From a bacterium (GTDB lineage: Bacteria > SM23-81 > DAOVCL01): 41,825 nucleotides of DNA. Under the pieces are notes generated by a model. The model made no database searches, was not told the DNA's origin, and saw only the letters and a list, made by a program, of their open reading frames with translations. A program made the position numbers and the translations under genes. The stretch covers positions 25,413 through 67,237 of the forward strand of contig JAOZPP010000006.1 in NCBI GenBank assembly GCA_029932675.1. The letters run 5' to 3'. Shown in pieces: positions 1,269 to 37,524 of the stretch (positions are counted from its first letter, which is position 1; each line of letters opens with the position of its first letter).

Positions 1269-4200
1269 ATGAGACGGGTAGGATTAATCATCGTATTGAC
1301 GGCAACCTTGGGGTTGCTGTTGGTGGGAGAAGGTTGGGGGACCCTGTCCAAGTCGATAAGCTTCTCCCCAGAGGATTTGACCTTCTCCCAACAGGAGGGT
1401 TATGATCTGGTAAACCTGGAGGGATGCAACTCCTTTACCACAGAGCCTGGTGCTCCCAGCCTTCCGGCAAAGACTTTGAGCTTTCTCATCCCGCAGGATG
1501 CTCAGGTTGACTCGGTGAGGATAGTAGGCTCTTACAGCCAGGAGGTTTCGGGGGATTACTGGATTTACCCTGTGCAATACCCCGTTTCTCTGGATGGGGG
1601 TGAACCTCTCCCTTTTGTGGAGCCAGATCCCTGGTATTATTTCTCCGGTCTCCCCTATCCCTGGAAGCTGGTGGAGGTGATCGGTGATGGCTACCGGGCC
1701 GGGTATCACATCGTCAGCCTGAAGCTATACCCTTTACGCTACAACGGTATTGACAGCACCCTCACCCTCTACACCCAGATCTCCTTTCAACTGAAGCTAT
1801 CGGCTGCCCCCAATGGGGCCCTGCCGGTCTATCGGAGGTCTCAGTTCAGCCAGAGGGAGGTGGAGAGGTATATCCGCAGCCTGATAGAGAACCCGGAGGA
1901 TATGGAGGGGTACGCAGGGATCCCGGCAAAGATGGAGAAGCGGGATAGGCTAAGAAAGCCCAAGATCACCCCCCTGCCTTCCCTGGAGAGTGACTGTGTT
2001 GATGAGGTAATCATCAGCTCGGAGGAGCTAAAGGACAGCTTCCAGAGGCTGGCCGACTGGAGGACAAAGGAGGGGGTGGTCACCGAGCTGAGGACAACGG
2101 AGTGGATTGGTTCCCACTACCCGGGGGTTGACCCCCAGGAGAAGGTCCACAACTTTATCAGGGACTGCTACAGCTACTGGGGGACGATGTGGGTTCTCTT
2201 GGGTGGAGACACCGATGTCCTGCCTTACAGGGGACTAAGCAGTTCCAGGGACCCCTCTGACCTCTACTTCTCCGGCCTGGATGAGAGCTGGAACAGCAAT
2301 GGGAATGCGGTATTTGGGGATGGAGCTGGTGAGATGCAGCTTGGTATGGGATTCTATTCGGTGGACTTCGTCAACCCCCAGGAGGGCTGGGCAGTAGGAG
2401 ACAACGGAACAATTCTGCACACCTCTGATGGTGGGAAGGTGTGGATGGCTCAGGAGAGCGGAACCGATAAAAGATTAGACGGGGTTAGCTTTGTGAATCC
2501 CAATCAGGGATGGATTCTGGTGGAGGATGGGACCATCCTCCATACCTCAGATGGAGGGGAGAACTGGGTAGTCCAGCCAACCGGTAAGGAGGACGAGTCA
2601 AGCAAGGGAGGAGTCGGCTGTGGTTGTATCTGCTTTGTGGATACCCTCAAAGGGTGGGCAGTTGGCTGCTGGGAGGAGAAGGTCTTGGTCACAAAGGACG
2701 GGGGGAATAACTGGTCCTATCAGGCAGAGGGAATGAGTGATCTCCTCTCTGGGATCACATTTATTGATTCTCTCCATGGCTGGGCCGTTGGCAAGTATTA
2801 CGGTAAGGCGGGAGCTGTGCTCCATACAGAGGATGGGGGACAGGACTGGCAGAGGACTCCGGTGGATGTGAAAGGAACACTGTATGAGGTCCATTTCGCA
2901 GACAGGAGTAATGGTTGGGCCAATACGGCAAGCAGGGTGATACACACATCAGATGGAGGAGGGAGCTGGGAGGTTCAGGATACAGAGCCGGGCCCAGGTG
3001 AGTTATTTATTGACCTCTGTGCTATTGACTCCCTGGAATGCTGGTTGGTGGGCTACGGTGGGCTCATCCTACATACCCAGGATGGGGGTCTGAGCTGGGT
3101 GAGGCAGGATGGGGTTCCCGATAGGGAATTCTTGGGTCTCTCCTTCCCCAATTCCCTCCAGGGTTGGGTTGTGGGGGGTGGGGGGATTATCCTCCATACC
3201 GCAGATGGGGGAGAGAGCTGGGAGACCCAGTTTGACCTCTATAGGCCCGGGGATAGGTTGGATCTGGACCCCGATGTCTGGCTGGGCCGGGCACCTGCTG
3301 AGGACACCACCCAGGTGAATGTCTTCATCAACAAGATCCTCACCTATGAGAAGAACCCACCCACAGATTACCTGAAGAAGATCCTCCTCTTAGGGGGATC
3401 CATCGTGGATAGTGGTGGCTATGGGCCAAGGACGAAGGAGGCAATACAGGACCCTGAATATAGTCCTTGGTATCCCCTTGTAGGCCTGACCAAATGGGAG
3501 CTCTATGGGCCAAAGGATGATCCGATTTCATGGCCGCCTCCACATCCCTTATGGACAGGCGATGCTGAGCTGAACCGCACAAATGCCCTGGCGGCGATAA
3601 ACTCCGGCTATCACTTTATCAACCACGGGGATCACGCAGGCAAGTATTGTCTGTGCACGGGGGCGGAGACGGGTGGAGGCAAGATCTGGAGGACGGATGC
3701 TGATGACCTGACCAATGGTTCTAAGCTATCCATCCTCTATTCCTTTGGCTGTTCCCCTAATGCCTTTGACTACGACTGCTTCTCAGAGCACTTCATCAAC
3801 AACCCCAATGGTGGTGGGGTGGCCTTTATCGGCAATACCAGAATCAGCTATGTTTCAAGCTGGGATGAAAACGACCCCAACTGGCAGGATCTCCAGTTCT
3901 ATCAGTCCCTTTTCGGGGATTCCCTCTACTTCTTAGGCCAGGCCTTTGCCACCACTCAGGATGTGGCACTGGTGTCAGGTCATGATCCCTACCTGGTCTA
4001 CATTATGAATATGCTCGGTGAGCCGGCTATGCCGGTCTGGACGGATACACCTTCTGAGCTTATGGTTTCTCATCCCTCCTCAATTGGCCTGGGGCCCACC
4101 CAGTTTACCGTCACCACCGACTGCCCCGGGGCCCTGGTTTGCCTGCAGAAGGGGAAGGAGGCTTATGCGGTGGGCCTTACAGGTGATAATGGGCAGATAA

Positions 4201-7200
4201 CCTTTGACTACAAGCCCGACACCCCGGGAACCCTCTCGGTAACTGTCACTGCCCAAAACCGTTATCCATACGAGGGAACCTGCACAGTGGGGAGCAGTCC
4301 AGAGGCCTATGTCTATGTCTGCTCAACCTATACAGAGGCGATGAGGCCAGGGGAGTCTGTTCAACTGGTCATCTCCCTCTGCAACTCAGGCCAGAACCCG
4401 GCCCAACTGGTCTCGGCCACCCTCAGCTCAGCGGATAGCGGGTTGGTGGATATAACCTCTGATTACGGCTGGTTTGGGGACATCCCCTCAGGGGGAAGCA
4501 GAAACAATCTCTCCCAACCTTTCATCCTCACCCTATCCCCGGACTGGCCGGATTCTCTGCCCTGGGCCTCCTTTCAGGTGGAGATTCAGGAGGGGCATTA
4601 CCTCTATACCTGGGAGGATGAGTTCCGGGTAGCGGTAAGGTCAGATTCATTGGTGCTGACGGGCAACTGGCTCACCGTTGGGGAGGATAGCCTTCAGGTT
4701 ACCGTTGATTCCCTCCTGGTGCACAACTATGGCTGGGGGGATGCCGATTCGGTGGTGGCGGTCCTCAGGCCCTTAAATTCAGGAATAACCGTGACGGACA
4801 GCCTCTCCAGTTTCGGCTCCATTGGGGCGTTGTCGGCTAAGCTGAGCAGGGATCCATTCTCCTTTACCGTCAGCAACTTAGACTCAATGGACTTTACATT
4901 AGTGCTCAGGGATAGATATGGAAGGCAGTGGCTTGAGGAGATTCACTTCTCCACTCTCTTGCCCCCCTATGCGGTCTGGGCTTCACTCTTTGGCCAGGAC
5001 TTCGTGGATCTGGGATGGGGTTACCAGAATCTTGCCGAACCGGTAGCCGGCTATAACCTGTACCGCAGCCCCTCCCGTGATGGGGAGTTTGTTAAAGTCA
5101 ATCCCTTTCCCATTAGGTTTTGCTGTTATAGGGATCAGGGGCTTGCCCCGGCAACCCTCTATTATTACAAGGTAACTGCTATTGATTCATCGGGGGACGA
5201 GAGTGGGCCCACGGAATTAATTGAGGTAGAGACAAACCCTTCTTTTCTCCCAGACTGGCCTCAGCCCATAGCCACAGAGGGGGAGAACCGCTCCTCGGTT
5301 GTTGCTGGCAACCTGGATGGTGATTCGACACAAGAGGTGGTGGTAGCCTCCAGGAACGAGGTCTATGCCTGGAAGGCGGATGGCAGCCTGATGGATGGCT
5401 GGCCCAAGGTGCTTACCTACACCACCAGGTCCTCCCCGGCCCTGGCCGATCTCGATGGGGATGGAAAGTTGGATGTAGTCATCAGCGGGGAGGGTAACGA
5501 CTCCGTCTATGTTTGGAACGGGGAGGGAGAGAATCTCCACGGTTGGCCTCAATCCACCCCACGCTCGGCCAGTGGAGTCCCGGCGGTATCGGACATTGAT
5601 GGGGATGGAAGTTTGGAGGTTCTGATTGGGGGTGGAGATAGCAAGCTGTATGCTTGGCACTCCGATGGCTCCCAGGTAGATGGCTTCCCGGTTGAACTGG
5701 CGGGCAACCCTGCTGGGGTAGCCATTGGGGATGTAGACCCGGATAGCCCGGGGTTGGAGTTGGCAATAAGTTGTTATGAGCCAGATGGTCATATTTATCT
5801 TCTCTCCTCTGGTGGAGGGATAATCTGGGGGAACAGCATAGACAGCTATTGCAAGGCCCCTCCTGTCTTGGGTGATTTGGATGGGGATGGAAGCTTAGAG
5901 GTAGTTGTAAGCGGTTGGCTAAATGGCAAGATTGGGGTCTGGAAGGCAAATGGGGATCCCTTCCCCGGCTGGCCTATCCAGGTTGGAGGGCAGATCTACA
6001 ACTCTCCTGCCCTGGGAGATATAGATGGCAACCCCTCTACCTTGGAGATTGCCGTGGGCTATTATGGTTCAGGCTGGGGACGTCTTAGCTGCCTTGACTA
6101 CCAGGGCAACACCTTATTTGAGAAGAGCATAGGGATGAACTATGCTTCTCCAGTGATAGCTGATGTAGACGGGGATGAAGGGGCAGAGGTGCTCATCAGT
6201 TGTGGCCGGGCCCATCCATTCCATGCCTTCAAGGTCAATGGTGATGAGCCCTTAGGTTGGCCCATTCAGCTCGGTGGGGGAAGCTGGTCATCCCCAGCCC
6301 TGGCCGATCTGGAAGGGGATGGCGATCTGGATATTCTCTTAGGTTGCACAGATGGGAAGCTGTATGGCTGGGACCTTCCCTGTATCTATGATCCCGATAA
6401 GATCGAATGGGGAATGTATCAGCACGACTATTGGCATACAGGTTTGTATACCTCAAGGAAGCACTATTTTAGCGGGCACATCAGCAAAGGGATTACCTGG
6501 GAAGGAGAGCTCTACATAACCGGTGATGTGACTATAGACAGCGGGGCGATATTAACTATTCAGGCGGGGACAGATGTTATATTTATGCCCAATCAGGACA
6601 ACCAAAAGGGAGGGGTGGATACATCCCGATGTGAGTTTATCGTGGAGGGGAATATGAGCGCCCTGGGAACAGCCTCCCAGCCGGTTAGCTTTGCATCCAC
6701 CTCCTCCGGCCCAGGAAGTTGGTATGGAATAAGGGTCAAAAACCAGGGGTGGGTAGTGATGGAGAATGTCACAATCAAGGATGGATATTGCGGGGTGGAC
6801 TTTGACTCGGCCCAGGGAGGGCATATTACCTCCTGCACCATAAAACACAATCAGTTTTATGGGATAAAGGCTTGTGCTGTGGATGATCTCACCATCGCCA
6901 GTAATACCATCTATGGCAACAATGCCTACGGGGTCTATACCCAGGACTGCTCACCCTACATAATGGGGAACAACTTCCCTAATCCCAATCAGAACTGTGC
7001 CATCAAGGTGGTGGGAAACTCGCCAGAGAAGCAGGCGGTCATCAGCGGCAATACCATTGCTATGCCTGTCCTTGAGTGTGACATACCCAGGGAAGGAGAT
7101 ACCACAGCGACTACGGGGATATACATTGAGGATGCCTCAGCTCAGATAGTGGACAACCACATAGGGGGTGGCTATTACGGCATATTGGGGATAGGTCTGG

Positions 7201-7868
7201 ACTCAACCACCGTGATCAAGGGAAGTTCAGAACAGAAGCTGGACAAAAATGTTGTAGGGTTGGCCCTTTATACAGGCTCCAGGCCAATAGTTTCTGGCAA
7301 CCACATTGACAGTTGTAGAAGCATAGGTGTAGCCTGCTACCAGAGCTGCCCTCTATTAGGTGATTCCCTCATCCCGGGAACGGGCAACAACAGCATCACC
7401 CCAGGCTCCTGTTCTCCTCAATATGCGGTATACTGTGAGGGGGTAACCGATACGATAAAGGCGGAGATGAACTTCTGGGGTGGGTCACCGCCTGATCCCG
7501 CCTGGTTCTATGGGCCGGTGGACTATGACCCTTGGCTTACCTCAGTAGGGGTGGAACCAACTACTAAGCCATCTCTGCCAGATCACTTCTCCCTTTCCCA
7601 GAACTACCCCAACCCTTTCAACCCTACCACAATTATTAATTATGAATTAAGAATTGAGAATTCCCCTATCCACACCACCCTAAAGATCTACAACATCTTA
7701 GGGCGGGAGGTGAGGACTTTGGTGGATGAGCCACAAGCTCCTGGCTACTACTCGGTGAGGTGGAACGGAAGGGACAATGCTGGCAAGGAACTGGCCAGTG
7801 GGGTATATTTCTACCGCATCAAGGCTGGGAATTTTGTGAAGACCAAAAAGATGGTTCTGCTGCGGTAG
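1269..7868 (+). CDS. Gingipain-like C25 cysteine protease with inserted YCF48 propeller, FG-GAP repeats, beta-helix and sorting tail
   Basis: A 2199-aa secreted protein. Start ATG 1269 has GGAAGGAGAG upstream and is followed by a signal peptide (about 1-24). Residues about 25-240 resemble the C25 propeptide. The catalytic domain is in two pieces (about 245-350 and 660-900). Likely catalytic His786 is in FINHGDH and Cys828 in SFGCSPNAFD, matching the His-Gly and Cys positions of gingipains. Between the pieces (about 358-655) sit seven repeats with the signature (I/L)(H/V)T.DGG..W, a YCF48/BNR-type propeller. After the protease come an Ig-like domain (about 925-1010), a CARDB-like stretch, FN3 (about 1231-1320), FG-GAP/VCBS repeats rich in D.DGDG..E (about 1327-1707), a parallel beta-helix region (about 1735-2080), and the FlgD-like tail (about 2106-2199). 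It is probably exported and cell-surface. Specificity cannot be read from sequence. Confidence 0.88.
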   Translation: MRRVGLIIVLTATLGLLLVGEGWGTLSKSISFSPEDLTFSQQEGYDLVNLEGCNSFTTEPGAPSLPAKTLSFLIPQDAQVDSVRIVGSYSQEVSGDYWIYPVQYPVSLDGGEPLPFVEPDPWYYFSGLPYPWKLVEVIGDGYRAGYHIVSLKLYPLRYNGIDSTLTLYTQISFQLKLSAAPNGALPVYRRSQFSQREVERYIRSLIENPEDMEGYAGIPAKMEKRDRLRKPKITPLPSLESDCVDEVIISSEELKDSFQRLADWRTKEGVVTELRTTEWIGSHYPGVDPQEKVHNFIRDCYSYWGTMWVLLGGDTDVLPYRGLSSSRDPSDLYFSGLDESWNSNGNAVFGDGAGEMQLGMGFYSVDFVNPQEGWAVGDNGTILHTSDGGKVWMAQESGTDKRLDGVSFVNPNQGWILVEDGTILHTSDGGENWVVQPTGKEDESSKGGVGCGCICFVDTLKGWAVGCWEEKVLVTKDGGNNWSYQAEGMSDLLSGITFIDSLHGWAVGKYYGKAGAVLHTEDGGQDWQRTPVDVKGTLYEVHFADRSNGWANTASRVIHTSDGGGSWEVQDTEPGPGELFIDLCAIDSLECWLVGYGGLILHTQDGGLSWVRQDGVPDREFLGLSFPNSLQGWVVGGGGIILHTADGGESWETQFDLYRPGDRLDLDPDVWLGRAPAEDTTQVNVFINKILTYEKNPPTDYLKKILLLGGSIVDSGGYGPRTKEAIQDPEYSPWYPLVGLTKWELYGPKDDPISWPPPHPLWTGDAELNRTNALAAINSGYHFINHGDHAGKYCLCTGAETGGGKIWRTDADDLTNGSKLSILYSFGCSPNAFDYDCFSEHFINNPNGGGVAFIGNTRISYVSSWDENDPNWQDLQFYQSLFGDSLYFLGQAFATTQDVALVSGHDPYLVYIMNMLGEPAMPVWTDTPSELMVSHPSSIGLGPTQFTVTTDCPGALVCLQKGKEAYAVGLTGDNGQITFDYKPDTPGTLSVTVTAQNRYPYEGTCTVGSSPEAYVYVCSTYTEAMRPGESVQLVISLCNSGQNPAQLVSATLSSADSGLVDITSDYGWFGDIPSGGSRNNLSQPFILTLSPDWPDSLPWASFQVEIQEGHYLYTWEDEFRVAVRSDSLVLTGNWLTVGEDSLQVTVDSLLVHNYGWGDADSVVAVLRPLNSGITVTDSLSSFGSIGALSAKLSRDPFSFTVSNLDSMDFTLVLRDRYGRQWLEEIHFSTLLPPYAVWASLFGQDFVDLGWGYQNLAEPVAGYNLYRSPSRDGEFVKVNPFPIRFCCYRDQGLAPATLYYYKVTAIDSSGDESGPTELIEVETNPSFLPDWPQPIATEGENRSSVVAGNLDGDSTQEVVVASRNEVYAWKADGSLMDGWPKVLTYTTRSSPALADLDGDGKLDVVISGEGNDSVYVWNGEGENLHGWPQSTPRSASGVPAVSDIDGDGSLEVLIGGGDSKLYAWHSDGSQVDGFPVELAGNPAGVAIGDVDPDSPGLELAISCYEPDGHIYLLSSGGGIIWGNSIDSYCKAPPVLGDLDGDGSLEVVVSGWLNGKIGVWKANGDPFPGWPIQVGGQIYNSPALGDIDGNPSTLEIAVGYYGSGWGRLSCLDYQGNTLFEKSIGMNYASPVIADVDGDEGAEVLISCGRAHPFHAFKVNGDEPLGWPIQLGGGSWSSPALADLEGDGDLDILLGCTDGKLYGWDLPCIYDPDKIEWGMYQHDYWHTGLYTSRKHYFSGHISKGITWEGELYITGDVTIDSGAILTIQAGTDVIFMPNQDNQKGGVDTSRCEFIVEGNMSALGTASQPVSFASTSSGPGSWYGIRVKNQGWVVMENVTIKDGYCGVDFDSAQGGHITSCTIKHNQFYGIKACAVDDLTIASNTIYGNNAYGVYTQDCSPYIMGNNFPNPNQNCAIKVVGNSPEKQAVISGNTIAMPVLECDIPREGDTTATTGIYIEDASAQIVDNHIGGGYYGILGIGLDSTTVIKGSSEQKLDKNVVGLALYTGSRPIVSGNHIDSCRSIGVACYQSCPLLGDSLIPGTGNNSITPGSCSPQYAVYCEGVTDTIKAEMNFWGGSPPDPAWFYGPVDYDPWLTSVGVEPTTKPSLPDHFSLSQNYPNPFNPTTIINYELRIENSPIHTTLKIYNILGREVRTLVDEPQAPGYYSVRWNGRDNAGKELASGVYFYRIKAGNFVKTKKMVLLR
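2340..3236 (+). repeat. Seven YCF48-type repeats inserted in the protease domain
   Basis: The repeats carry ILHTSDGGKVW, ILHTSDGGENW, VLVTKDGGNNW, VLHTEDGGQDW, VIHTSDGGGSW, ILHTQDGGLSW and ILHTADGGESW. Seven copies would close a seven-bladed propeller. The insert lies between NAVFGDGAGE and DRLDLDPDVWLGRAP, a join that is short and continuous in ordinary C25 proteases. Confidence 0.8.
7631..7665 (+). repeat. Tandem degenerate heptamers AATTNNN inside the sorting tail
   Basis: Five perfect-register 7-base units: AATTATT, AATTATG, AATTAAG, AATTGAG, AATTCCC. They encode INYELRIENSP. They match the array at 962-996 and are much richer in A+T than the surrounding gene. Confidence 0.8.
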
Positions 7869-8879: not shown

Positions 8880-11489
8880 CTAACCCTTCGATCCCTTCTT
8901 GAACCCGATCATCCCTTCCTGCAGGACCACCTGGATTCTCTCCCCTTCCTTAATCTGGCCGGAGAGGATCTTCTTTGCCAAGGGCTGGCTTACATACCTC
9001 TGCAGAGTTCTCCTTAAGGGGCGGGCGCCAAAGGCTGGATCAAATCCAGTTTTGGCAATATATTCTGCCGCCTCAGCAGATAAACTTAGCTCAATATCCC
9101 TCTCCTGCAACCTCTCCCTTATCTCCTCAAACTGAAGGTAGACTATCTTCTTTACCTCCTCTGGGGAGAGGGAATGAAAGACGATGATCTCATCGATCCT
9201 ATTAAGGAATTCAGGACGGAAGTTCTTCTTCAAGAGGGCCAAGACCTCTTCCCGCATCTGGTCATATACCAATGCCTCATTGGATGGGTTGATCTTCGCC
9301 GAGAGTTCCATGATCAGAGGAGCACCTATGTTAGAGGTCATAATCAGAATGGTGTTCTTGAAGTTTACAGTTCTCCCCTTATTATCAGTAAGCCTCCCCT
9401 CATCAAGCACCTGGAGGAGGAGGTTGAAGACCTCTGGGTGGGCCTTTTCGATCTCATCAAAGAGGATTACCGAATAGGGTCTCCTCCTCACCGCCTCAGT
9501 AAGTTGTCCCCCCTCCTCATAACCCACATATCCTGGAGGCGCTCCTACCAACCTGGATGTAGAGAACTTCTCCATATACTCAGACATATCAATCCGCACT
9601 AGGGCATCCTCATCTCCAAAGAGGAACTCGGCCAATCCCTTGGCCAACTCAGTCTTTCCCACCCCAGTAGGGCCAAGGAAGATAAATGAGCCATTGGGCC
9701 TGCGGGGGTCAGTAAGCCCCACCCGAGCTGATCTCACGATTCCAGCCACAGAGCTTACCGCCTGATCCTGCCCCACTATCCTTTGATGAAGGACCTCCTC
9801 CAACCTGTTCAACTTCTCAGACTCCTCCTCGGTAAGCCGAGAGAGGGGGATATGAGTCCATTTGGAGACAACCTCGGCCACATCCTCCTCATCTACCTCC
9901 TCCTTAACCAACTTCCTATCCTTCTGAATCTCCTTCAGCCTTGCCTTGGCCTCCTCTAATTTGCCCTCAAGCTCCACTATCTCACCATATCTTAGCCTAG
10001 CTGCCTTCTCCAGGTTAGCCTCCCTTTCTGCCTTCTCCGCCTCCAGCTTTGCTGACTCCAGCCCCTTCTTTAGCTCCCTGATCCGGGTAATGGCCTCCTT
10101 CTCCCTCAGCCAGTGGGAGCGGAGGGAATTCCTCTCCTCATTTAAGCGGGCCAGTTCCTTCTCAATTGGTTCCAACCTCTTCTGGGCATCTTTCTCCCTC
10201 TTCACCGCCTCCCTCTCTACCTCTAACTGCCTAATCCTCTTCTCTATGGAATCCAACTCCTCAGGCATAGAGTCAATCTCTATCCTCAGCTCTGCAGCGG
10301 CCTCATCAACCAAATCAATAGCCTTATCTGGAAGGAACCGATCGGCGATATATCTCTCGGAAAGTTTGGCTGCAGCCACCAGGGCCGCATCCTGAATCCT
10401 CACCCCATGATGGACCTCATACCTCTCCCGGAGGCCCCTGAGGATGGATATGGTCTCCTCCACGGTTGGCTCCTCAACCAAAACCGGGGAGAACCTCCTC
10501 TCTAAGGCTGCATCCTTCTCTATATTCTCCCTATACTCATCCAAGGTCGTCGCCCCAATACACCTCAGATCACCCCTCGCCAAAGCAGGCTTGAGCATAT
10601 TGGAGGCATCCATCGCCCCCCCCACAGCTCCTGCTCCAACGATGGTATGGAGCTCATCGATGAAGAGGATGACCTTACCTCCAGCACCCTCTACCTCCTT
10701 CAAGACAGCCTTTACCCTCTCCTCAAACTCCCCACGGAACTTGGAACCGGCAATCATAGCCCCGAGATCAAGGGCAATCAACCTCCTATCCTTGAGGCTC
10801 TCCGGAACCTCCCCAGCGACGATCTTCTGAGCTAAACCCTCCACAATGGCTGTCTTCCCCACTCCAGGTTCTCCGATAAGAACGGGATTGTTCTTGGTGC
10901 GACGGGAGAGGACCTTCATCACTCGCCGGATCTCCTCCTGCCGTCCGATAACTGGATCGAGCTTACCCTTGCGGGCCAATTCAGTGAGGTCCCGACCATA
11001 CCTCTTCAGGCTTTGATATTTTGTCTCCGGCTCTGCATCGGTAACCCTTTGCCCCCCTCTGATCTTCTTCATCGCCTCAAATATCCTCTCCTTAGTGGCG
11101 CCCTGCCCTCTTAGATCCTCCCCTACCCCATCCCTAGAGCCAGCAAGGGCGAGAAGAAGGTGCTCCACACTCACATATTCATCCTGCAATCTGGAGGCCT
11201 CCTTTAGGGACCCATCAAGCACCTCCTTTAATTGAGGGGAGAGGTAGATCTCACCACCTGGGCTGAGGAGGCGGGGGAGATGCTCCAACCTCTCCTTCAT
11301 CCTCATCTGGAGGGGGGAGGTAGGAACTCCAATGCTCTCCAGGATCTCTGCGGCGAGGCTCTCCTTCTGGTCAAGCAAGGCCAAAAGAAGGTGCACTGGC
11401 TCCACCTGGGGGTGCCCCCTCTCCTTGGCTAACTCATGGGCCGATTGGATTGCCTCCTGCGACTTTGTTGTAAAGTTCTCAGCTCTCAT
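8880..11489 (-). CDS. clpB: ATP-dependent disaggregase ClpB
   Basis: 869 aa from ATG 11489 ([11 protein letters not shown]). The reading frame runs on upstream for 40 more codons, but these encode an arginine run overlapping the fmdB-like gene and are unlikely to be translated. Order: N domain (1-145), NBD1 with Walker A GEPGVGKT (206-213) and Walker B FIDE (277-279), coiled-coil M domain (about 405-525), NBD2 with Walker A GPTGVGKT (606-613), and C-terminal domain. This is a normal full-length ClpB; with DnaK and GrpE encoded upstream it would resolubilise aggregates in the cytoplasm. Its start overlaps the end of the fmdB-like gene by 11 bases, suggesting translational coupling; AAGGAGGA lies 14 bases ahead. 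Confidence 0.96.
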
Positions 11490-11733
11490 CGGATTTAGAC
11501 TTTTCCTCCTTCTTAGAATCCTTCTCCTTCTTCGCCGCCTCCTTGTAGGCTTCACTGCGATAGTCCGTGGCGTAGAAACCTGCCCCTTTGAAGAGCAGTC
11601 CCCCACCACCGCTGATCAATCTCCTCACCTCGCCACGACAGTAAGGGCATTGGGATAAAGGGGGGTCATTTATTGACTGAAAGATGTCAAACTTTCTCCC
11701 ACAGCTCTCACAGAGATATTCGTAGGTAGGCAT
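11479..11733 (-). CDS. FmdB-family zinc-ribbon protein
   Basis: 84 aa. It has the FmdB/Zn-ribbon start [12 protein letters not shown] with Cys8, Cys11, Cys29 and Cys32 (C..C and CPYC) binding zinc, a [13 protein letters not shown] segment typical of the family, and a highly charged lysine/glutamate/serine tail. The family's role is poorly known (originally proposed as a regulator). ATG 11733 is preceded by AGGAGGTAAAG. It sits directly upstream of clpB with an 11-base overlap and downstream of degP, so it may be a small regulator or assembly factor in the quality-control block. Confidence 0.88.
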
Positions 11734-11909
11734 CTTTACCTCCTGAGTCTAACGAAGTTTCACCTCCCCAGTCCAGAACGGGCAAGCCATCAAGGTAAAG
11801 CGATCTGAAATAGGTGAGGCCTCAAATTGTGAAACGGAAAGTGTAAAAGTAAAATCCCCCTTTGCTAACCTTCCCTTAAAGCAACATCCTCTTGCCCTTT
11901 TAGCCAAAG

Positions 11910-13331
11910 CTATTCCTTAGGGACCTTAACAGCTACAAAGAGGGTGTTCTCACCCCTTCTTACCAGGAAGAGGATGCTCTCCCCTTTCTTAACCCTTCCC
12001 AAAACCCTCCGATAATCGTCGAGGGATGAGACCTTCTTCCTGTTTATCTCCTGGATGAGATCCCCCCGCTTTAGGCCGGCCAATTGGGCCAAGCTACCAT
12101 ATTTCACATCGGAGACGACCACCCCCTCTTGGCCAGTGTAGCCCAACCTGCGGGCCAAATCTTCAGTCAACTCCTCAACTTCTATCCCCAACTTCTCGGC
12201 CACCTCCGGGGCTGCCCCAGATGATGATGAGCCCGAAGAGGGCATCTCCCCCAGCTTAACCCAGAGACCCTTTCTCTGGCCATCCCTGATTACCTCGAGT
12301 TTCACTTTAGTTCCTGGTTTATGAGTGGCCACCATATTCTTCAACCCCACTGCATCTTTCACCTTCTGACCGGCAAAGCCAATAATTACATCCCCTCTCT
12401 TCACCCCACCTTTTGCAGCCGGTGAGTCCTTTTTCACATCCCCTACTACCACTCCCTCTGCTCTCTCCAGGCCCAGCGCCTCAGCCATATCTGAGTCTAC
12501 ATCCTGAATGATCACCCCTAGCCAACCACGAATAACCTTCCCCTTAGAGATCAACTGATCCATAACCTCTTTAGCCATATTAATGGGAATAGCAAAACCA
12601 ATCCCCTGATAACCACCGGAACGGGTGGCAATGGCCGTATTTATCCCAATTACCTCCCCCTGAAGGTTGACCAAAGCACCACCGCTATTGCCTGGATTTA
12701 TGGCTGCATCGGTCTGGATAAAATCCTCATACTCTGCCAAACCCACATTTGACCTTCCCTTGGCGCTGATTATCCCTGCGGTAACCGTATGAGATAGACG
12801 AAAAGGGTTACCAATAGCCAATACCAACTCCCCCACCTTTACCTTGTCTGAGTCGCCCAGCTTGGCCACAGGAAGGCCATGAGCATCGATCTTTATCACC
12901 CCCACATCTGTCTTGGCATCAGTGCCCACGATCTTAGCCTTAAACTTCCTCTTGTCCGAGAGGGTTACCCATATCTTCTCCGCTCCAGAGATCACGTGAT
13001 TGTTGGTGAGGATATACCCATCCTTGCTCACTATCACCCCAGAGCCCAAACCCCTCTCCCGAATCTCCCCCTGGGGGATGGGAATGGTAAAGAAACGCCC
13101 AAAGAAGTCGTTACCAAAGAAGTCCTTAAAAGGTTCCTCGCTAAATGGTGAGCCCTTGGCCTTTATCACCTTCTCACTCGATATGGAGACGACTACCGGA
13201 TTCACCTCTGCGGCTACGCGGGAAAAATCCTCGCTCAAGCCAGCCAAGGATGCACCAGCCCGCACTTGCCCCACCCAGATGAGGAGGATCAGAGGAAGTG
13301 GAGCAAATCTGGTGATAGGGTGCGTTTTCAT
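11910..13331 (-). CDS. degP: Periplasmic Do-family serine protease DegP/HtrA
   Basis: 473 aa from ATG 13331 (GGAGGAAAGG just upstream); a longer frame upstream adds 21 residues but would overlap the grpE end. An N-terminal signal peptide (about 1-26) directs export. The trypsin-like domain has the triad His112 (TNNHV), Asp142 (TDVGV) and Ser216 (GNSGG). Two PDZ domains follow (about 265-350 and 380-470), the second ending in KRGDLIQEINRKKV. It degrades or holds unfolded envelope proteins. It lies 22 bases after grpE in the same direction, which links cytoplasmic and periplasmic quality control in one transcript. There is no clear terminator after it. Confidence 0.95.
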   Translation of the reverse strand: MKTHPITRFAPLPLILLIWVGQVRAGASLAGLSEDFSRVAAEVNPVVVSISSEKVIKAKGSPFSEEPFKDFFGNDFFGRFFTIPIPQGEIRERGLGSGVIVSKDGYILTNNHVISGAEKIWVTLSDKRKFKAKIVGTDAKTDVGVIKIDAHGLPVAKLGDSDKVKVGELVLAIGNPFRLSHTVTAGIISAKGRSNVGLAEYEDFIQTDAAINPGNSGGALVNLQGEVIGINTAIATRSGGYQGIGFAIPINMAKEVMDQLISKGKVIRGWLGVIIQDVDSDMAEALGLERAEGVVVGDVKKDSPAAKGGVKRGDVIIGFAGQKVKDAVGLKNMVATHKPGTKVKLEVIRDGQRKGLWVKLGEMPSSGSSSSGAAPEVAEKLGIEVEELTEDLARRLGYTGQEGVVVSDVKYGSLAQLAGLKRGDLIQEINRKKVSSLDDYRRVLGRVKKGESILFLVRRGENTLFVAVKVPKE

Positions 13332-13353
13332 CCTTTCCTCCTTTTTAAAAGCT

Positions 13354-13833
13354 CTACCCGTGTAACTGCTTTGAGGAGGGAAAGTTCCCTCCATCGCTCA
13401 GCTTTCCCACCTTAACCCTGCTGGGCCTGAGCAGAGACTCCTTGAACAGGTATCCCTTCTGCAGTTCCTCTAAGACCAGCCCATCCCTCTCCTCCTCTTC
13501 CACCTCCTCCACCACCACTGCTTCATGCCTGGACGGTTCGAACCTCTCCCCTACGGCAAAAATCCTCCTTAAACCCTCCTCTTCCAGAACCTGGAGGAGC
13601 TTCTCATAGGTAAGCCAGAGGCCTTTGAGGGTCGCCTCCGGGTTCTCCTTGCCCATCTTCAACGCCTCTTCAAAGGAGTCCACCACCGGGAGTAGCTTCC
13701 TCAGGAGCTGACATTTAAGAAGCTGGATGTTCTCCTTTTGCTTTTTGACTTCCCTCTTCTTGTAGTTCTCAAATTCTGCTTTAAGCCTTTGCAGATCTTC
13801 CAAATAATTTGGGACTGCCTCTTCCTTGACCAT
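13354..13833 (-). CDS. grpE: Nucleotide exchange factor GrpE
   Basis: 159 aa from ATG 13833, which has AGGAGGT 7-8 bases upstream. The same frame is open to a GTG at 13890 (178 aa), but that start has only a weak RBS. The protein has the GrpE layout: N-terminal coiled coil (LQRLKAEFENYKKRE), four-helix segment with LLPVVDSFEEAL, and a beta domain (F.VGERFEPSRHEAV ... GYLFKESLLRPSRVKVG). It releases ADP from DnaK. It follows dnaK, whereas in most bacteria grpE comes before dnaK; no dnaJ is seen in this window. Confidence 0.93.
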   Translation of the reverse strand: MVKEEAVPNYLEDLQRLKAEFENYKKREVKKQKENIQLLKCQLLRKLLPVVDSFEEALKMGKENPEATLKGLWLTYEKLLQVLEEEGLRRIFAVGERFEPSRHEAVVVEEVEEEERDGLVLEELQKGYLFKESLLRPSRVKVGKLSDGGNFPSSKQLHG

Positions 13834-13928
13834 TTGAAGAACCTCCTGGGATAAGGCTAAAGCTCTCTCACTCCCTACCGAATGGAACACCAGCCTCTTT
13901 CCCGGGGCTGAGGAGGGCTAATGCTGGC

Positions 13929-15833
13929 TCAATCCACTACCTCATAATCGGCATCCACTGCCTTCCCCTTACCTCCTTCTGCTTTGCCCTCTGGCTTAGG
14001 TCCTTCTTCGGCCCGAGGACCCTGCTGAGCAGATGAAGCCTGCTGGTACATCTTTCCGGCAGCCTCATGCCACACTTGGGTGAGAGCGTCCATAGAGGAT
14101 CTTATCTCCCCTATATCGGTCCCTTTGAGTGCCTCCTTCACCCGACCGAGGGCCGTCTCGACCTTGGACTTGGTGGCCGGGTCAATTTTGTCACCCATCT
14201 CCTTCAAGTTCTTTTCCGTCTCATAGGCCAACTGATCGGCGCGATTACGTGTCTCTACTTCCTCTCTCCTCCTCTTATCCTCCGCCTGATGAGCCTCCGC
14301 ATCCCTGACCATCTTCTGAATCTCCTCTTCACTGAGTCCACTGGAGGCCTCAATCCTTATAGACTGCTCCTTACCCGTAGCTTTGTCCTTAGCGGAGACA
14401 TTAAGGATACCATTGGCATCTATGTCGAAGCTGACCTCGATTTGAGGGATGCCCCGGGGCGCTGGAGGAATCCCATCAAGGTGGAATCTCCCAATCGATT
14501 TGTTGTCAGCAGCCATTTCCCTCTCCCCCTGAAGCACATGGATCTCTACAGTGGTCTGGTTATCGGCAGCCGTGGAGAATATCTCGCTCTTCCTAGTGGG
14601 TATAGTGGTATTCTTCTCGATAAGCTTAGTGAATACCCCTCCCAAAGTCTCAATGCCTAAGGAGAGGGGGGTAACATCGAGGAGCAACACATCTTTAACC
14701 TCCCCAGCAAGAACACCTCCCTGTATAGCCGCACCTACTGCCACCACTTCATCCGGATTAACCCCCTTATGGGGCTCCTTGGAGAAGAGCCTCTTCACCG
14801 TCTCCTGCACCTTGGGTATACGGGTGGAACCACCAACTAAGATAACCTCGTCGATCTGAGAGGCCGTTATCCCAGCATCCTTCAGGGCCTGTTCACAAGG
14901 GCCCACTGTGCGCTCGATCAGATCGTCCATTAGTTGCTCCAATTTGGCCCTGGTCAGGGTGAGGTTAAGATGCTTGGGGCCCGATGAATCAGCGGTAATA
15001 AAGGGGAGGTTGATATCCGTCTTTATCGTGGTGCTCAGCTCACACTTGGCTTTTTCCGCGGCCTCCTTTAACCTCTGCAGTGCCATGGGGTCACCTTTCA
15101 GATCTATCCCTTCTGCCTTCTTGAACTCCTCTGCTAGCCAGTCTATTATCCTCTGATCGATGTCATCACCCCCTAAATGGGTATCCCCATTTGTGGACTT
15201 CACCTCAAAGACCCCATCACCGATCTCCAAGATGGAGATATCAAAGGTTCCCCCACCGAAATCATAAACAGCAATCTTCTCATCCTTCTTTTTATCCAAT
15301 CCATAGGCTAACGAGGCCGCTGTGGGCTCATTTATTATCCGCAGGACATTTAGACCAGCAATTCGCCCAGCATCCTTGGTGGCCTGTCTCTGGGAGTCGT
15401 TAAAATAGGCAGGGACAGTAATTACTGCATCGGTAACCTTCTCACCCAAGTAATCCTCCGCTGTTTGTTTCATCTTCTGGAGGACCATCGCCGATATCTC
15501 CGGTGGTGAATACTCCTTACCCCCAGCCTTCACCCGGGCATCTCCCCCCGGCCCCTTCACTACTTCATAGGGAACCTCCTCAATCTCTGTGCGCACCTCA
15601 TCGAATTTCCTCCCCATAAATCTTTTGATGGAGAAAATGGTATTCTGAGGGTTGGTGATGGCCTGACGCTTAGCCACTTGACCAACCAATCTTTCCCCAT
15701 CCTTGGTGAAGGCCACTACTGAAGGGGTAGTTCGACTGCCCTCACTATTTGGTATCACTACCGGATCGCCACCTTCCAAGACTGCGACACAGGAATTGGT
15801 GGTTCCTAAATCTATCCCAATCACTTTCCCCAT
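13929..15833 (-). CDS. dnaK: Chaperone DnaK (Hsp70)
   Basis: 634 aa. ATG 15833 ([15 protein letters not shown]) is chosen over the GTG three codons upstream, because that GTG is part of the RBS AGGAGGTGAAGAAA. It contains the phosphate-1 loop [10 protein letters not shown], the DFGGGTFD motif, the adenosine motif VGGSTRIP, the interdomain linker [13 protein letters not shown] and an acidic C-terminus (DADYEVVD). This is a full-length cytoplasmic Hsp70. It lies downstream of the hsp20 terminator, so it needs its own promoter; I could not identify a convincing one in the 60 bases available, and no CIRCE operator is present. Confidence 0.97.
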
Positions 15834-15892
15834 TTTCTTCACCTCCTAAATTGGTGATCTTAAAATCAATAGAACAGTTCAGAGGGTCAGAA

Positions 15893-15928
15893 AAGCCTCT
15901 CCCCCCGTGCAAACGGGGGGAGAGGCTT
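15893..15928 (-). terminator. Intrinsic terminator of hsp20
   Basis: A perfect 15-bp stem, AAGCCTCTCCCCCCG with CGGGGGGAGAGGCTT, loop TGCAAA. It begins 4 bases after the hsp20 stop and is followed by TTTTC on the minus strand. It separates hsp20 from dnaK. Confidence 0.88.
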
Positions 15929-15932
15929 CTGC

Positions 15933-16379
15933 TCACTTCACCTCGATGGCTATCTCTTTGGGTTTGGCCTCTTCGGCTTTGGGCAACCTAACCTTGAGCA
16001 CTCCATCCTTGTAGGTGGCTTTAACCTGATCCTGCTGAACAGTTGTCGGCAGAGTAAAGGAGCGATGAAAGGCTCCGTAGCTTCTCTCAATCCGATGGTA
16101 GTTCTCCTCCTCTACTTTCTTCTCCTGTCTCTTCTCCCCTTTCAACGTAAGGATGTTGTCATTGAGCGAAATCTTAATGTCGTCCTTCTTCATCCCCGGT
16201 ATCTCCGCAGTGACCACTATCTCATCCTTGGTCTCAGAGATATCTACGCAGGGTGACCATAGGCCTTCTCCAAACTCCTTCCTTTCCGGGAACCTCTCGA
16301 AGAGCCGATCGAAGAGCCTATTCATCTCCTCCTGCATAGTGGCCAAATCCCTGAACGGTCTCCATCTTACCAAATCCAT
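15933..16379 (-). CDS. Small heat shock protein Hsp20 / alpha-crystallin
   Basis: 148 aa. ATG 16379 is preceded by AGGAGGTGAAGGGAA. The alpha-crystallin domain spans about 40-135 (CVDISETKDEIVVTAEIPGMKKDDIKI is its start; the ERSYGAFHRSFTLP strand is diagnostic), followed by a C-terminal I-x-I type motif (EIAIEVK) used for oligomer contacts. It is an ATP-independent holdase that hands substrates to DnaK/ClpB. It is a monocistronic unit with its own terminator, and its upstream region holds a consensus sigma-54 site. Confidence 0.95.
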   Translation of the reverse strand: MDLVRWRPFRDLATMQEEMNRLFDRLFERFPERKEFGEGLWSPCVDISETKDEIVVTAEIPGMKKDDIKISLNDNILTLKGEKRQEKKVEEENYHRIERSYGAFHRSFTLPTTVQQDQVKATYKDGVLKVRLPKAEEAKPKEIAIEVK

Positions 16380-34312: not shown

Positions 34313-37300
34313 TCACCTCCATCTTTGCAAGATATTTTTTGCCTCTTTTAACCACTTTTTCTTCTCTACGCTATCCAAGGGAAAGATTATCTCAAACCCC
34401 CTTCCCTGACTGAACTCCATGGTTAAGGATAATTTAAAGAGGTTCCTCAGATCCTCCTGGGAAGGGGCAACCCCCGGCGGATAGGAGAAGACAAGGCCCT
34501 TATCAGAGAGCATAACCCGATTGAGCCCCTTTCCCCCAGCCAGAAGGGCCACCTCAACCCTATCAAAGAGGGATTCTCCCTCCAAGGGGAGTCTTCCATA
34601 CCTGTCCTCAACCTCCTCTCTCAGCTCCTCCACCTCAGCGAAGGACTTCGCTTCAGCAAGCCTCTGATAGACTTCTACTCTCTGATCGGTAGAGGGAATG
34701 TAGGATTGAGGGAAATGAAAGCTCTTAAAACTAACCTCTGCTCTAAGCGCCTTCACCTTTTCCTCTCCTTTTAGCTCCCTAATCGCCTCCTCGATTAGTT
34801 TACAGTAAAGGTTAAACCCCACAGCTTCTATAAAACCATGCTGTTGAGGGCCGAGGATATTGCCCGCTCCCCTTATCTCCAGATCTCGCATGGCTAAATC
34901 GAAACCTGAGCCTAAATGGGTAAACTGCTCAATAGCTTTAAGCCTCTTCTTGGCTGTAGGCGTAAGCCTCCTCCATGAAGGGACCAAAAGGTAAGCATAG
35001 GCCTGTTGGTTAGATCTCCCTACTCTCCCCCTCAACTGATATAGCTGAGCCAAACCAAATCTATCAGCTCTATTAATGATAATCGTGTTCACATTGGGGA
35101 TATCTATTCCAGATTCTATGATACTGGTGGTCACCAGACAGTCGAACCTCCGATTCAAGAAGTCTAACATTACCCTTTCCAATGATCTCTCCTCCATCTG
35201 TCCATGAGCAATGGCAAATCTTACCTGGGGGAGTAACCTTCTCAGATAGCCTGTAATCGCATGAATCGTTTCCACCCGGTTGTGGACAAAATAGATTTGC
35301 CCATTTCTTTCTACCTCCCTAAGAATAGCTTCCGAAATGACTTGGGGATTAAAACCAATGATCTGCGTTTCAACTGCCAGCCTTTCCTGAGGGGGGGTAT
35401 CTATCCGGGACATATCCCTAGCTCCCATCAGGGAGAGGTTGAGGGTACGCGGGATAGGAGTGGCTGTTAAGGTAAGGACATCCACCAACCTCCTCAGCTT
35501 CTTCAGCCTTTCCTTATGAGCTACCCCAAACCTCTGTTCCTCATCGATAACCACCAATCCCAGATCTCGAAATCTTACATCCCTCTGGAGGAGCCTGTGA
35601 GTGCCAATAACTATGTCCACCCGCCCCCCTTCTAAATCACTAAGTATCTCCTTTTGTTGACCCTTCGTCTTGAACCGGGAGAGCATCTCGACCCTAACCG
35701 GATAGTCGGCCAATCTCTCACGGAAGGTAATCAAATGCTGCTGAGCCAGAACTGTTGTAGGGACCAGAACAGCTACCTGTTTTCCATCCATTACTGCTTT
35801 AAAAGCAGCTCTCACCGCCACCTCCGTCTTTCCATAACCCACATCCCCACATACTAACCTATCCATAGGGGCCTCATCTTCCATATCAGCCTTTATGGCC
35901 TCGAGTGCAGCAAGTTGATCTGGGGTTTCCTCGTAGATAAATGAAGCCTCCAACTCCCTTTGCCACTCCGTATCCGGAGAGAAAGCGAAGCCCTTCTTAG
36001 CCTTCCTTTCAGCATATATTTCAATAAGTTCCTTAGCCATATTCTTTATTGCTCTTTTTGCCTTCCCTCTGGCTCTTTCCCAATCCACCCCCCCCAACCT
36101 GGAAAGTTGGGGGACAAATCCCTCTTTGCCCACATATTTTTGCACCCGGTCCAACTGATCGATGGGCACATAGAGCCTATCCCCATCCCTATAGACTAAG
36201 TGCAAACACTCCATCTTCTTCCCACTGCTCTTAATCAGTTTTAGCCCCAAAAACTTACCGATACCATAGTCTATATGCACCACATAGTCGCCTGCGGAGA
36301 GGGAGCGCCAAGAGCTAATAGCCACCCCTTCCCTATATCTCCTTCTCCTTTTCCTAAGAAGGTAACGGTTAAATATCTCGTGGTCGGTGAAGATGGAGAT
36401 CTTCAGCTCAGGAATAAGAAACCCATGGTTGAGGCTCCCTACCGAGATCTCTACACCTTGTTGGAGGGCAAGAAGCTCCTCCAATCTCTGGGCTTGACCA
36501 GCATTTTCACAGAGGATGTAGCTTTTCCACCCTTTCTGAAGATTCTCCTTAAGCCTCTCCCGGAGGAAGGAGACGCTTGCGTTCACCGCTTCCTGGGGAT
36601 AGGCACCTATAGGGATACACAATGGAGCATTCCCCTTAAGGGGCAAATCTTCTATAACCTTGAACTTGCCTCCCTCCTTAAACTTCACCCCCTCGGACAG
36701 AGCATCATCTTTGAGTGATTCGTGGAGGAAAAGCAAGGAACTGGGGGGGAAGTAATCAGTGATGCTTACTGAAGATTTGGCTAATCTGTCATCTGAAGGA
36801 AGAATGAAACACTCTTCCACCTTTTTCACCGACCTCTGGTTCCTCACATCAAAGTACCTAATCGATTCTACCTTCTCCCCAAAGAACTCTATCCGCAAAG
36901 GATTCTCCCCCCCATAAGGGAAGATATCCAATATCCCCCCTCGAACACTGAAATCCCCTACAGCTTCCACTAAGGGAAGGCTTTCAAAACCCATATCCAC
37001 AAGCTTTTCTATTAGTTCCTCCCTATCCAGTATTTGGCCAACTCTAACCCTAACCACCCTTCGAAAGAAGTATTCAGGAAGCATCACCCCTTCCTCCAAA
37101 GCCTTTGGGGTAGCCACCACGATCAACCTCCCTCCCTGGGAGAGCAACCAGAGGGCCTCTACCCTCCCCCCCATTATCTCCGGATCATCTCTATGGGAAG
37201 AGAGTGGGAGAAATGGCCTTGTCTCCTCCCCAAATGACCTTAGATCATCAACTATCTCCCGGACTTCCCTTGGTTGGCTAACGAGAACCAGAATAGGGGC

Positions 37301-37453
37301 ATCCAACCCCTCCCTGAGGAGCGATAAAAGCAGGGATTTGGAGGAACCATAAAGCTCGGAGACAGAAACCCTTGAGCTGTTTTGTATTAACTCAAGGAGA
37401 GTAAGAAGGAGTTTTGATTCCTTGACCTTTCTTCTGATTTCTTCCAGAGCCAT
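34313..37453 (-). CDS. mfd: Transcription-repair coupling factor Mfd
   Basis: 1046 aa from ATG 37453 (MALEEIRRKV). It frees stalled RNA polymerase and recruits UvrA. UvrB-homology module about 25-330; RNA polymerase-interacting CarD-like domain about 385-440 (SAGDYVVHIDYGIGKFLGL); RecG-type translocase with Walker A CGDVGYGKTE (535-544) and Walker B DEEQ (637-640); TRG region (SIIESGIDIP, YQLRGRVGRS); D7 regulatory domain at the C-terminus. Start choice: no RBS precedes this ATG, and a TTG 14 codons upstream also lacks one. A TATATT box 7 bases before the ATG suggests a leaderless mRNA. Confidence 0.95.
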   Translation of the reverse strand: MALEEIRRKVKESKLLLTLLELIQNSSRVSVSELYGSSKSLLLSLLREGLDAPILVLVSQPREVREIVDDLRSFGEETRPFLPLSSHRDDPEIMGGRVEALWLLSQGGRLIVVATPKALEEGVMLPEYFFRRVVRVRVGQILDREELIEKLVDMGFESLPLVEAVGDFSVRGGILDIFPYGGENPLRIEFFGEKVESIRYFDVRNQRSVKKVEECFILPSDDRLAKSSVSITDYFPPSSLLFLHESLKDDALSEGVKFKEGGKFKVIEDLPLKGNAPLCIPIGAYPQEAVNASVSFLRERLKENLQKGWKSYILCENAGQAQRLEELLALQQGVEISVGSLNHGFLIPELKISIFTDHEIFNRYLLRKRRRRYREGVAISSWRSLSAGDYVVHIDYGIGKFLGLKLIKSSGKKMECLHLVYRDGDRLYVPIDQLDRVQKYVGKEGFVPQLSRLGGVDWERARGKAKRAIKNMAKELIEIYAERKAKKGFAFSPDTEWQRELEASFIYEETPDQLAALEAIKADMEDEAPMDRLVCGDVGYGKTEVAVRAAFKAVMDGKQVAVLVPTTVLAQQHLITFRERLADYPVRVEMLSRFKTKGQQKEILSDLEGGRVDIVIGTHRLLQRDVRFRDLGLVVIDEEQRFGVAHKERLKKLRRLVDVLTLTATPIPRTLNLSLMGARDMSRIDTPPQERLAVETQIIGFNPQVISEAILREVERNGQIYFVHNRVETIHAITGYLRRLLPQVRFAIAHGQMEERSLERVMLDFLNRRFDCLVTTSIIESGIDIPNVNTIIINRADRFGLAQLYQLRGRVGRSNQQAYAYLLVPSWRRLTPTAKKRLKAIEQFTHLGSGFDLAMRDLEIRGAGNILGPQQHGFIEAVGFNLYCKLIEEAIRELKGEEKVKALRAEVSFKSFHFPQSYIPSTDQRVEVYQRLAEAKSFAEVEELREEVEDRYGRLPLEGESLFDRVEVALLAGGKGLNRVMLSDKGLVFSYPPGVAPSQEDLRNLFKLSLTMEFSQGRGFEIIFPLDSVEKKKWLKEAKNILQRWR

Positions 37454-37460
37454 AGTGAAT

Positions 37461-37490
37461 AATATAAAAAAAGTTACTCGCCAAGGGCAA
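37461..37490 (-). promoter_or_regulatory. Possible promoter giving leaderless mfd mRNA
   Basis: Minus strand TTGCCC (37490-37485), 18-base spacer, TATATT (37466-37461). The start of transcription would fall on or next to the mfd ATG at 37453. Confidence 0.4.
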
Positions 37491-37493
37491 CCC

Positions 37494-37524
37494 AAAAATC
37501 AAAGGCCCCCTGGAATGGAGGCCT
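37494..37524 (-). terminator. Intrinsic terminator of the Ca-loop lipoprotein gene
   Basis: Minus strand AAGGCCTCC and GGGGGCCTT pair (one G-T/mismatch position) around ATTCCA, followed by TGATTTTT. It is about 50 bases after the stop and ends the OMP-lipoprotein operon before mfd. Confidence 0.78.

Follow-up and report, generated by a model that had tools for sequence, protein, structure and literature searches.

A seven-bladed YCF48-type propeller within the C25 peptidase domain of a predicted type IX secretion cargo, and a second type of propeller at the same loop

Does a complete beta-propeller that interrupts the catalytic domain of a secreted protease take part in selecting what the enzyme cuts, or is it merely carried in a permissive loop? 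This question is raised by an open reading frame (positions 1269-7868, plus strand, as are all features of this gene given below) in a stretch of DNA of 41,825 nucleotides from an uncultured bacterium of sediment, here called the window. The frame encodes 2199 aa and is predicted to specify a secreted, multidomain C25 peptidase with an internal propeller.

Domain layout and active site

The window protein begins with a signal-like hydrophobic segment and a Propeptide_C25 domain (residues 47-176, positions 1407-1796; 31.6 bits, cut-off 22). The Peptidase_C25 domain follows as an N-terminal half (residues 241-352, positions 1989-2324), delimited by the profile match and the alignment of relatives, and a C-terminal half (residues 662-930, positions 3252-4058), delimited by Pfam and the empty site in relatives; next come the Ig-like Peptidase_C25_C domain (residues 928-1001, positions 4050-4271; Pfam), a region of FG-GAP repeats (positions 5421-6353; profile matches), which is a second repeat region separate from the propeller repeats, a right-handed beta helix (residues 1819-1979, positions 6723-7205; Pfam) and a T9SS type A sorting tail, also matched as FlgD_ig in Pfam (residues 2111-2196, positions 7599-7856). 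Upstream lies a gene (positions 27-1199, frame still open at the left edge of the window) whose product likewise has a FlgD_ig/T9SS-type tail at its end and whose body consists of repeats of another kind. On the minus strand, the window carries housekeeping genes, i.e., an Mfd-type helicase (positions 34313-37495) and a stress cluster encoding a Clp ATPase, an HtrA-like protease, Hsp70 and Hsp20 (positions 8880-16379).

Family alignments place the catalytic Cys at C828 (codon at positions 3750-3752) and, by alignment to gingipain, the catalytic His at H789 (codon at positions 3633-3635), both in family-conserved columns. A preliminary description of this locus had reported Cys828 as retained, which these alignments bear out, and had taken His786 as the catalytic His; H786 is instead the first His of the NHxGHA motif and occupies the position of a gingipain Tyr. 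This motif is conserved in relatives and reads NHGDHA in the window protein, where further departures from the family consensus near the site include S829 for Trp and changes at residues 859-865, in addition to D788 for Gly. As L070, the closest relative without the insert and a member of the same genus, also reads NHxDH, the D788 change is not due to the insertion. The replacement of several near-invariant residues of the active-site loop could indicate that the C25 domain, as a pseudoenzyme or scaffold, leaves the main function to the propeller; we consider this improbable, as Cys828, His789 and the pro-domain are all kept and some of the replacements are common to the nearest uninserted relative. 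The window protein is predicted to have protease activity. It resembles the gingipains RgpB and Kgp (C25, clan CD) in its pro-domain, its complete though split profile, its Cys/His dyad, its C25_C Ig domain and its T9SS tail, and differs from them at the insertion site, which is a short hairpin in Kgp and RgpB and a 309-residue propeller in the window protein.

The propeller insert and its place in the C25 fold

Pfam matched Peptidase_C25 to the window protein with 173 bits (cut-off 23) in two stretches (profile positions 2-128 and 118-373), with PSII_BNR (119.6 bits, cut-off 27) between them. The pattern [ILV][HV]T.DGG..W had seven exact matches at residues 383-651 (positions 2415-3221); 2000 shuffles of the same protein contained no match. 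When residues 241-969 were used as a query, C25 relatives matched query residues 1-112 and 421-729 as directly adjoining segments, and the matches of standalone propellers were limited to query residues 95-437. In the alignment, relatives show an empty site that reads FGE-(2 to about 20 aa)-D.VDLYPDVFVGR, where the window protein has approximately 309 aa; this places the insert, linkers included, at residues ~353-661 (positions ~2325-3251), with Pfam, the predicted structure, Foldseek and the motif copies in agreement. The seven motif copies and the splitting of the C25 domain by YCF48-type repeats, both noted previously, are thus confirmed by these analyses; the span proposed earlier (positions 2340-3236) agrees with ours to within about 15 nt per end, and its proposed location in a loop fits a site that is short and variable in length (2-20 aa) among relatives. 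These data make it a solid finding that the C25 domain of the window protein carries a whole seven-bladed YCF48-type propeller. The repeats share the seven-bladed, Asp-box-like propeller with Ycf48/HCF136 (PSII_BNR); as the Ycf48 equivalog PRK13684 (NCBIfam) scored below its cut-off (122 of 326 bits), they belong to the same fold family as Ycf48 and do not represent the photosystem factor. Unlike Ycf48, a standalone photosystem II assembly factor, the propeller of the window protein sits inside a protease.

We also predicted the structure of residues 241-1005 with AF2, using an alignment of the window protein with 49 C25 relatives and five propeller proteins (mean pLDDT 85.1, pTM 0.71). In this model, residues 122-416 (model numbering) form a confidently predicted propeller of 28 strands, which we grouped as seven blades of four strands each, and the two C25 halves flanking them are predicted with confidence and in the right strand order; confidence is low for the linkers (model residues 113-118 and 419-423) and for one C25 loop (472-526). 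Foldseek, with scores normalised to the target, aligned the model to Ycf48 (5ojr; TM 0.74, about 297 of 301 residues) and to a designed seven-bladed propeller (7bie; TM 0.83). The match to RgpB (4ief/1cvr; TM 0.60-0.61, likewise normalised to the target) spans 365 columns and most likely covers the C-terminal half only. The pTM exceeds the value of ~0.56 that a rough calculation gives for a free-floating propeller and therefore argues against such an arrangement in the model, which by itself is no proof that the N- and C-terminal halves join. As a surface loop tolerates changes in length, the two halves should still fold as one C25 domain.

The insert directly precedes strand beta4 (VFVGR) and lies in the N-terminal catalytic subdomain, in a short loop between a beta-ribbon and beta4. 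In the gingipain sheet, the strands follow one another as 6 up, 5 up, 7 up, 8 up, 9 up, 10 down, 4 down, 3 down, 1 down, 2 down; those of the N-subdomain run opposite in direction to those of the C-subdomain, in which the third and fourth caspase-like strands bear the catalytic His and Cys at their C-terminal ends (PMC4357240). Since beta4 points downward, it begins at the top of the sheet, which is the active-site edge. Projected onto this published topology, the insertion loop would lie on the active-site edge, approximately three strands from the Cys-bearing strand, and the topology of the window C25 domain is compatible with a propeller-gated peptidase (PMC4357240).

Export, origin of the insert and recurrence in a second lineage

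The sorting tail of the window protein scores above the cut-off for the type A sorting domain (TIGR04183, 36.2 bits, cut-off 23) and just under the cut-off of 27 for the Pfam equivalents PF18962 and PF13585 (23.6 and 24.7 bits). The 3.0 Mb genome to which the window belongs (G000) contains approximately 20 C25 peptidase genes and encodes the SprA translocon (G000:C25:4692-10130; 758.7 bits summed, cut-off 200). As its sorting domain exceeds the cut-off and the genome encodes SprA, the window protein is a predicted T9SS cargo. The protein was also considered as a PorU sortase and rejected in this role, as NF033707 reached 63.1 of 420 bits and matched in the tail only.

Standalone secreted YCF48-type propeller proteins are encoded in the same genome. 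In the propeller tree, the insert groups with two of them with weak support (85/88 and 87/61), and it shares 46% identity with one standalone propeller of this genome (L039). Given the weak support, an intragenomic origin is only suggested; capture of the insert from a resident secreted propeller gene is possible. The window comes from a metagenome-type assembly; the YCF48-type form is found in one genome only, and YCF48 genes occur at the ends of other contigs, all of which could point to an artefact of assembly or binning that joined a C25 gene to a YCF48 gene. We regard such an artefact as very improbable: the frame is open across both junctions, both ends of the insert coincide with the family loop, the G+C content of the insert (0.554) is like that of its flanks, and among the insert-free YCF48 copies found in the genome even the closest shares only about 41-46% identity, so that no near-identical repeat was seen that could have caused a misjoin. 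Four other genomes, moreover, show an equivalent arrangement in full open frames.

These four genomes represent four genera of one family in another phylum. In G210:C8 (L059, L150), a C25 domain is split at the same loop by approximately 300 residues of Reg_prop repeats, which amount to seven blades by our count. The same arrangement, with open frames, was found in G340, G386 and G387, whose proteins show 47-52% identity over the whole query; the inserts alone are 39-47% identical among the four genomes. A sister from this family (G069) has an empty site, GEAHG-DNPDLLPDLVVGR. In the C25 tree, the window protein groups with uninserted relatives (support 97/96) and the Reg_prop proteins form a separate clade (100/100) with an uninserted sister; in addition, the inserted propellers represent different Pfam families (PSII_BNR in the window protein and Reg_prop in the second lineage). 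Separate, supported C25 clades and different propeller families together indicate that two propeller insertions occurred independently at the same C25 loop and that the arrangement is not unique to the window. It is uncommon for a catalytic fold to receive a whole domain and keep its reading frame. The same loop, filled in two unrelated lineages with two different seven-bladed propellers, can be read as a natural insertion port, and the family of the second lineage, with four orthologues that carry the insert and a sister that lacks it, offers a clean test set.

Possible roles of the propeller and distribution of the arrangement

Our best explanation, which we hold with about even confidence, is that the window protein would be a T9SS-exported, extracellular C25 cysteine protease in which a whole seven-bladed YCF48-type propeller, inserted in the short loop before beta4, serves substrate docking or limits access to the cleft. 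The propeller would most likely sit beside the cleft, as it enters the fold at the sheet edge that also carries the catalytic Cys and His, and would either dock particular substrates or partners or restrict entry, by analogy with Ycf48, which binds a D1 peptide (entry title, 5ojr), and with prolyl oligopeptidase (S9), where a seven-bladed propeller over the peptidase site is proposed to limit substrate entry (PMC5446394). Prolyl oligopeptidase would be an analogue in working, with a seven-bladed propeller juxtaposed with a peptidase domain; unlike the window protein, it is a serine peptidase of alpha/beta-hydrolase fold, its catalytic domain and propeller are both unrelated to those described here, and gating in the C25 case is putative. 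C25 and seven-bladed propellers also meet in PorZ, which has two such propellers, binds A-LPS and serves the C25 sortase PorU (PMC8545088), and the insert of the second lineage is of the Reg_prop type; PorZ, however, acts in trans, and the propeller-bearing proteins of the two lineages score only 63.1 and 43.6 bits against a PorU cut-off of 420. The gating or substrate-selecting role that the preliminary description had proposed for the propeller is plausible.

A serious, if less probable, alternative is that the propeller is a passive surface-binding module (for a glycan, a mineral, the cell wall or a partner protein) in a permissive loop and is unrelated to substrate access. It is consistent with the mosaic nature of these proteins (FG-GAP, beta-helix and Ig modules), with the standalone secreted YCF48 propellers of the same genome and with the length variability that the insertion loop already shows among relatives. 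In an Altiarchaeota C25 protein, furthermore, an InhA-like MAM is inserted at a different loop, which indicates that C25 domains accept inserts elsewhere. On the other hand, a passive role would predict random modules at random loops, whereas a seven-bladed propeller is found at the same loop in two independent lineages; the presence of another propeller at this loop in the second lineage, together with the projected place of the loop on the active-site edge, speaks for a function linked to the protease. As an unrelated family placed a different seven-bladed propeller there, the loop before beta4 seems to be a natural site for the docking of modules that possibly control what the protease cuts, and secreted proteases may repeatedly have arrived at this way of controlling docking or the access of substrates. 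The stronger proposal that C25 peptidases acquired seven-bladed propellers before beta4 at least twice independently, both overhanging the cleft as a substrate filter, so that cysteine proteases would have their own equivalent of the gate in prolyl oligopeptidase, strikes us as doubtful.

We assessed how common such inserts are by a local HMM analysis of 149 loci, in which only the window protein and L059 carried a domain-size insert at this loop. Two HMM searches of 56 genomes gave at least some 300 further matches, and further cases may exist beyond the matches listed. A separate, earlier wide search scored two candidates per genome, so that it is not a census. Additional split genes were suspected where C25 matches started at profile position ~112-128; besides the Reg_prop family, none of the 32 candidate loci checked had a recognisable domain-size insert, and in those with an identifiable N-terminal half the two parts were separated by a diverged loop of at most about 65 residues. 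Scanning genome contigs with the insert together with its junctions gave no relative; when the junctions served as a query against the phylum's four genomes, the window was the sole match. A same-genus genome has C25 paralogues without the insert; the YCF48-type form is known from one assembled genome. In the literature searched, no report of a C25 domain interrupted by a propeller was found, and both topics appeared together only in a T9SS review.

Other unusual C25 architectures were observed as well. The MAM-bearing Altiarchaeota protein (L110:4224-9041; JAUWTD010000037.1) has a C25 domain interrupted by approximately 143 residues and was rejected as a case of insertion at the same loop, as its insert is in the N-terminal subdomain but at another loop. 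Two very long C25 proteins (L061, G182:C34, 3772 aa; L067, G259:C21, 3805 aa) have uninterrupted catalytic domains.
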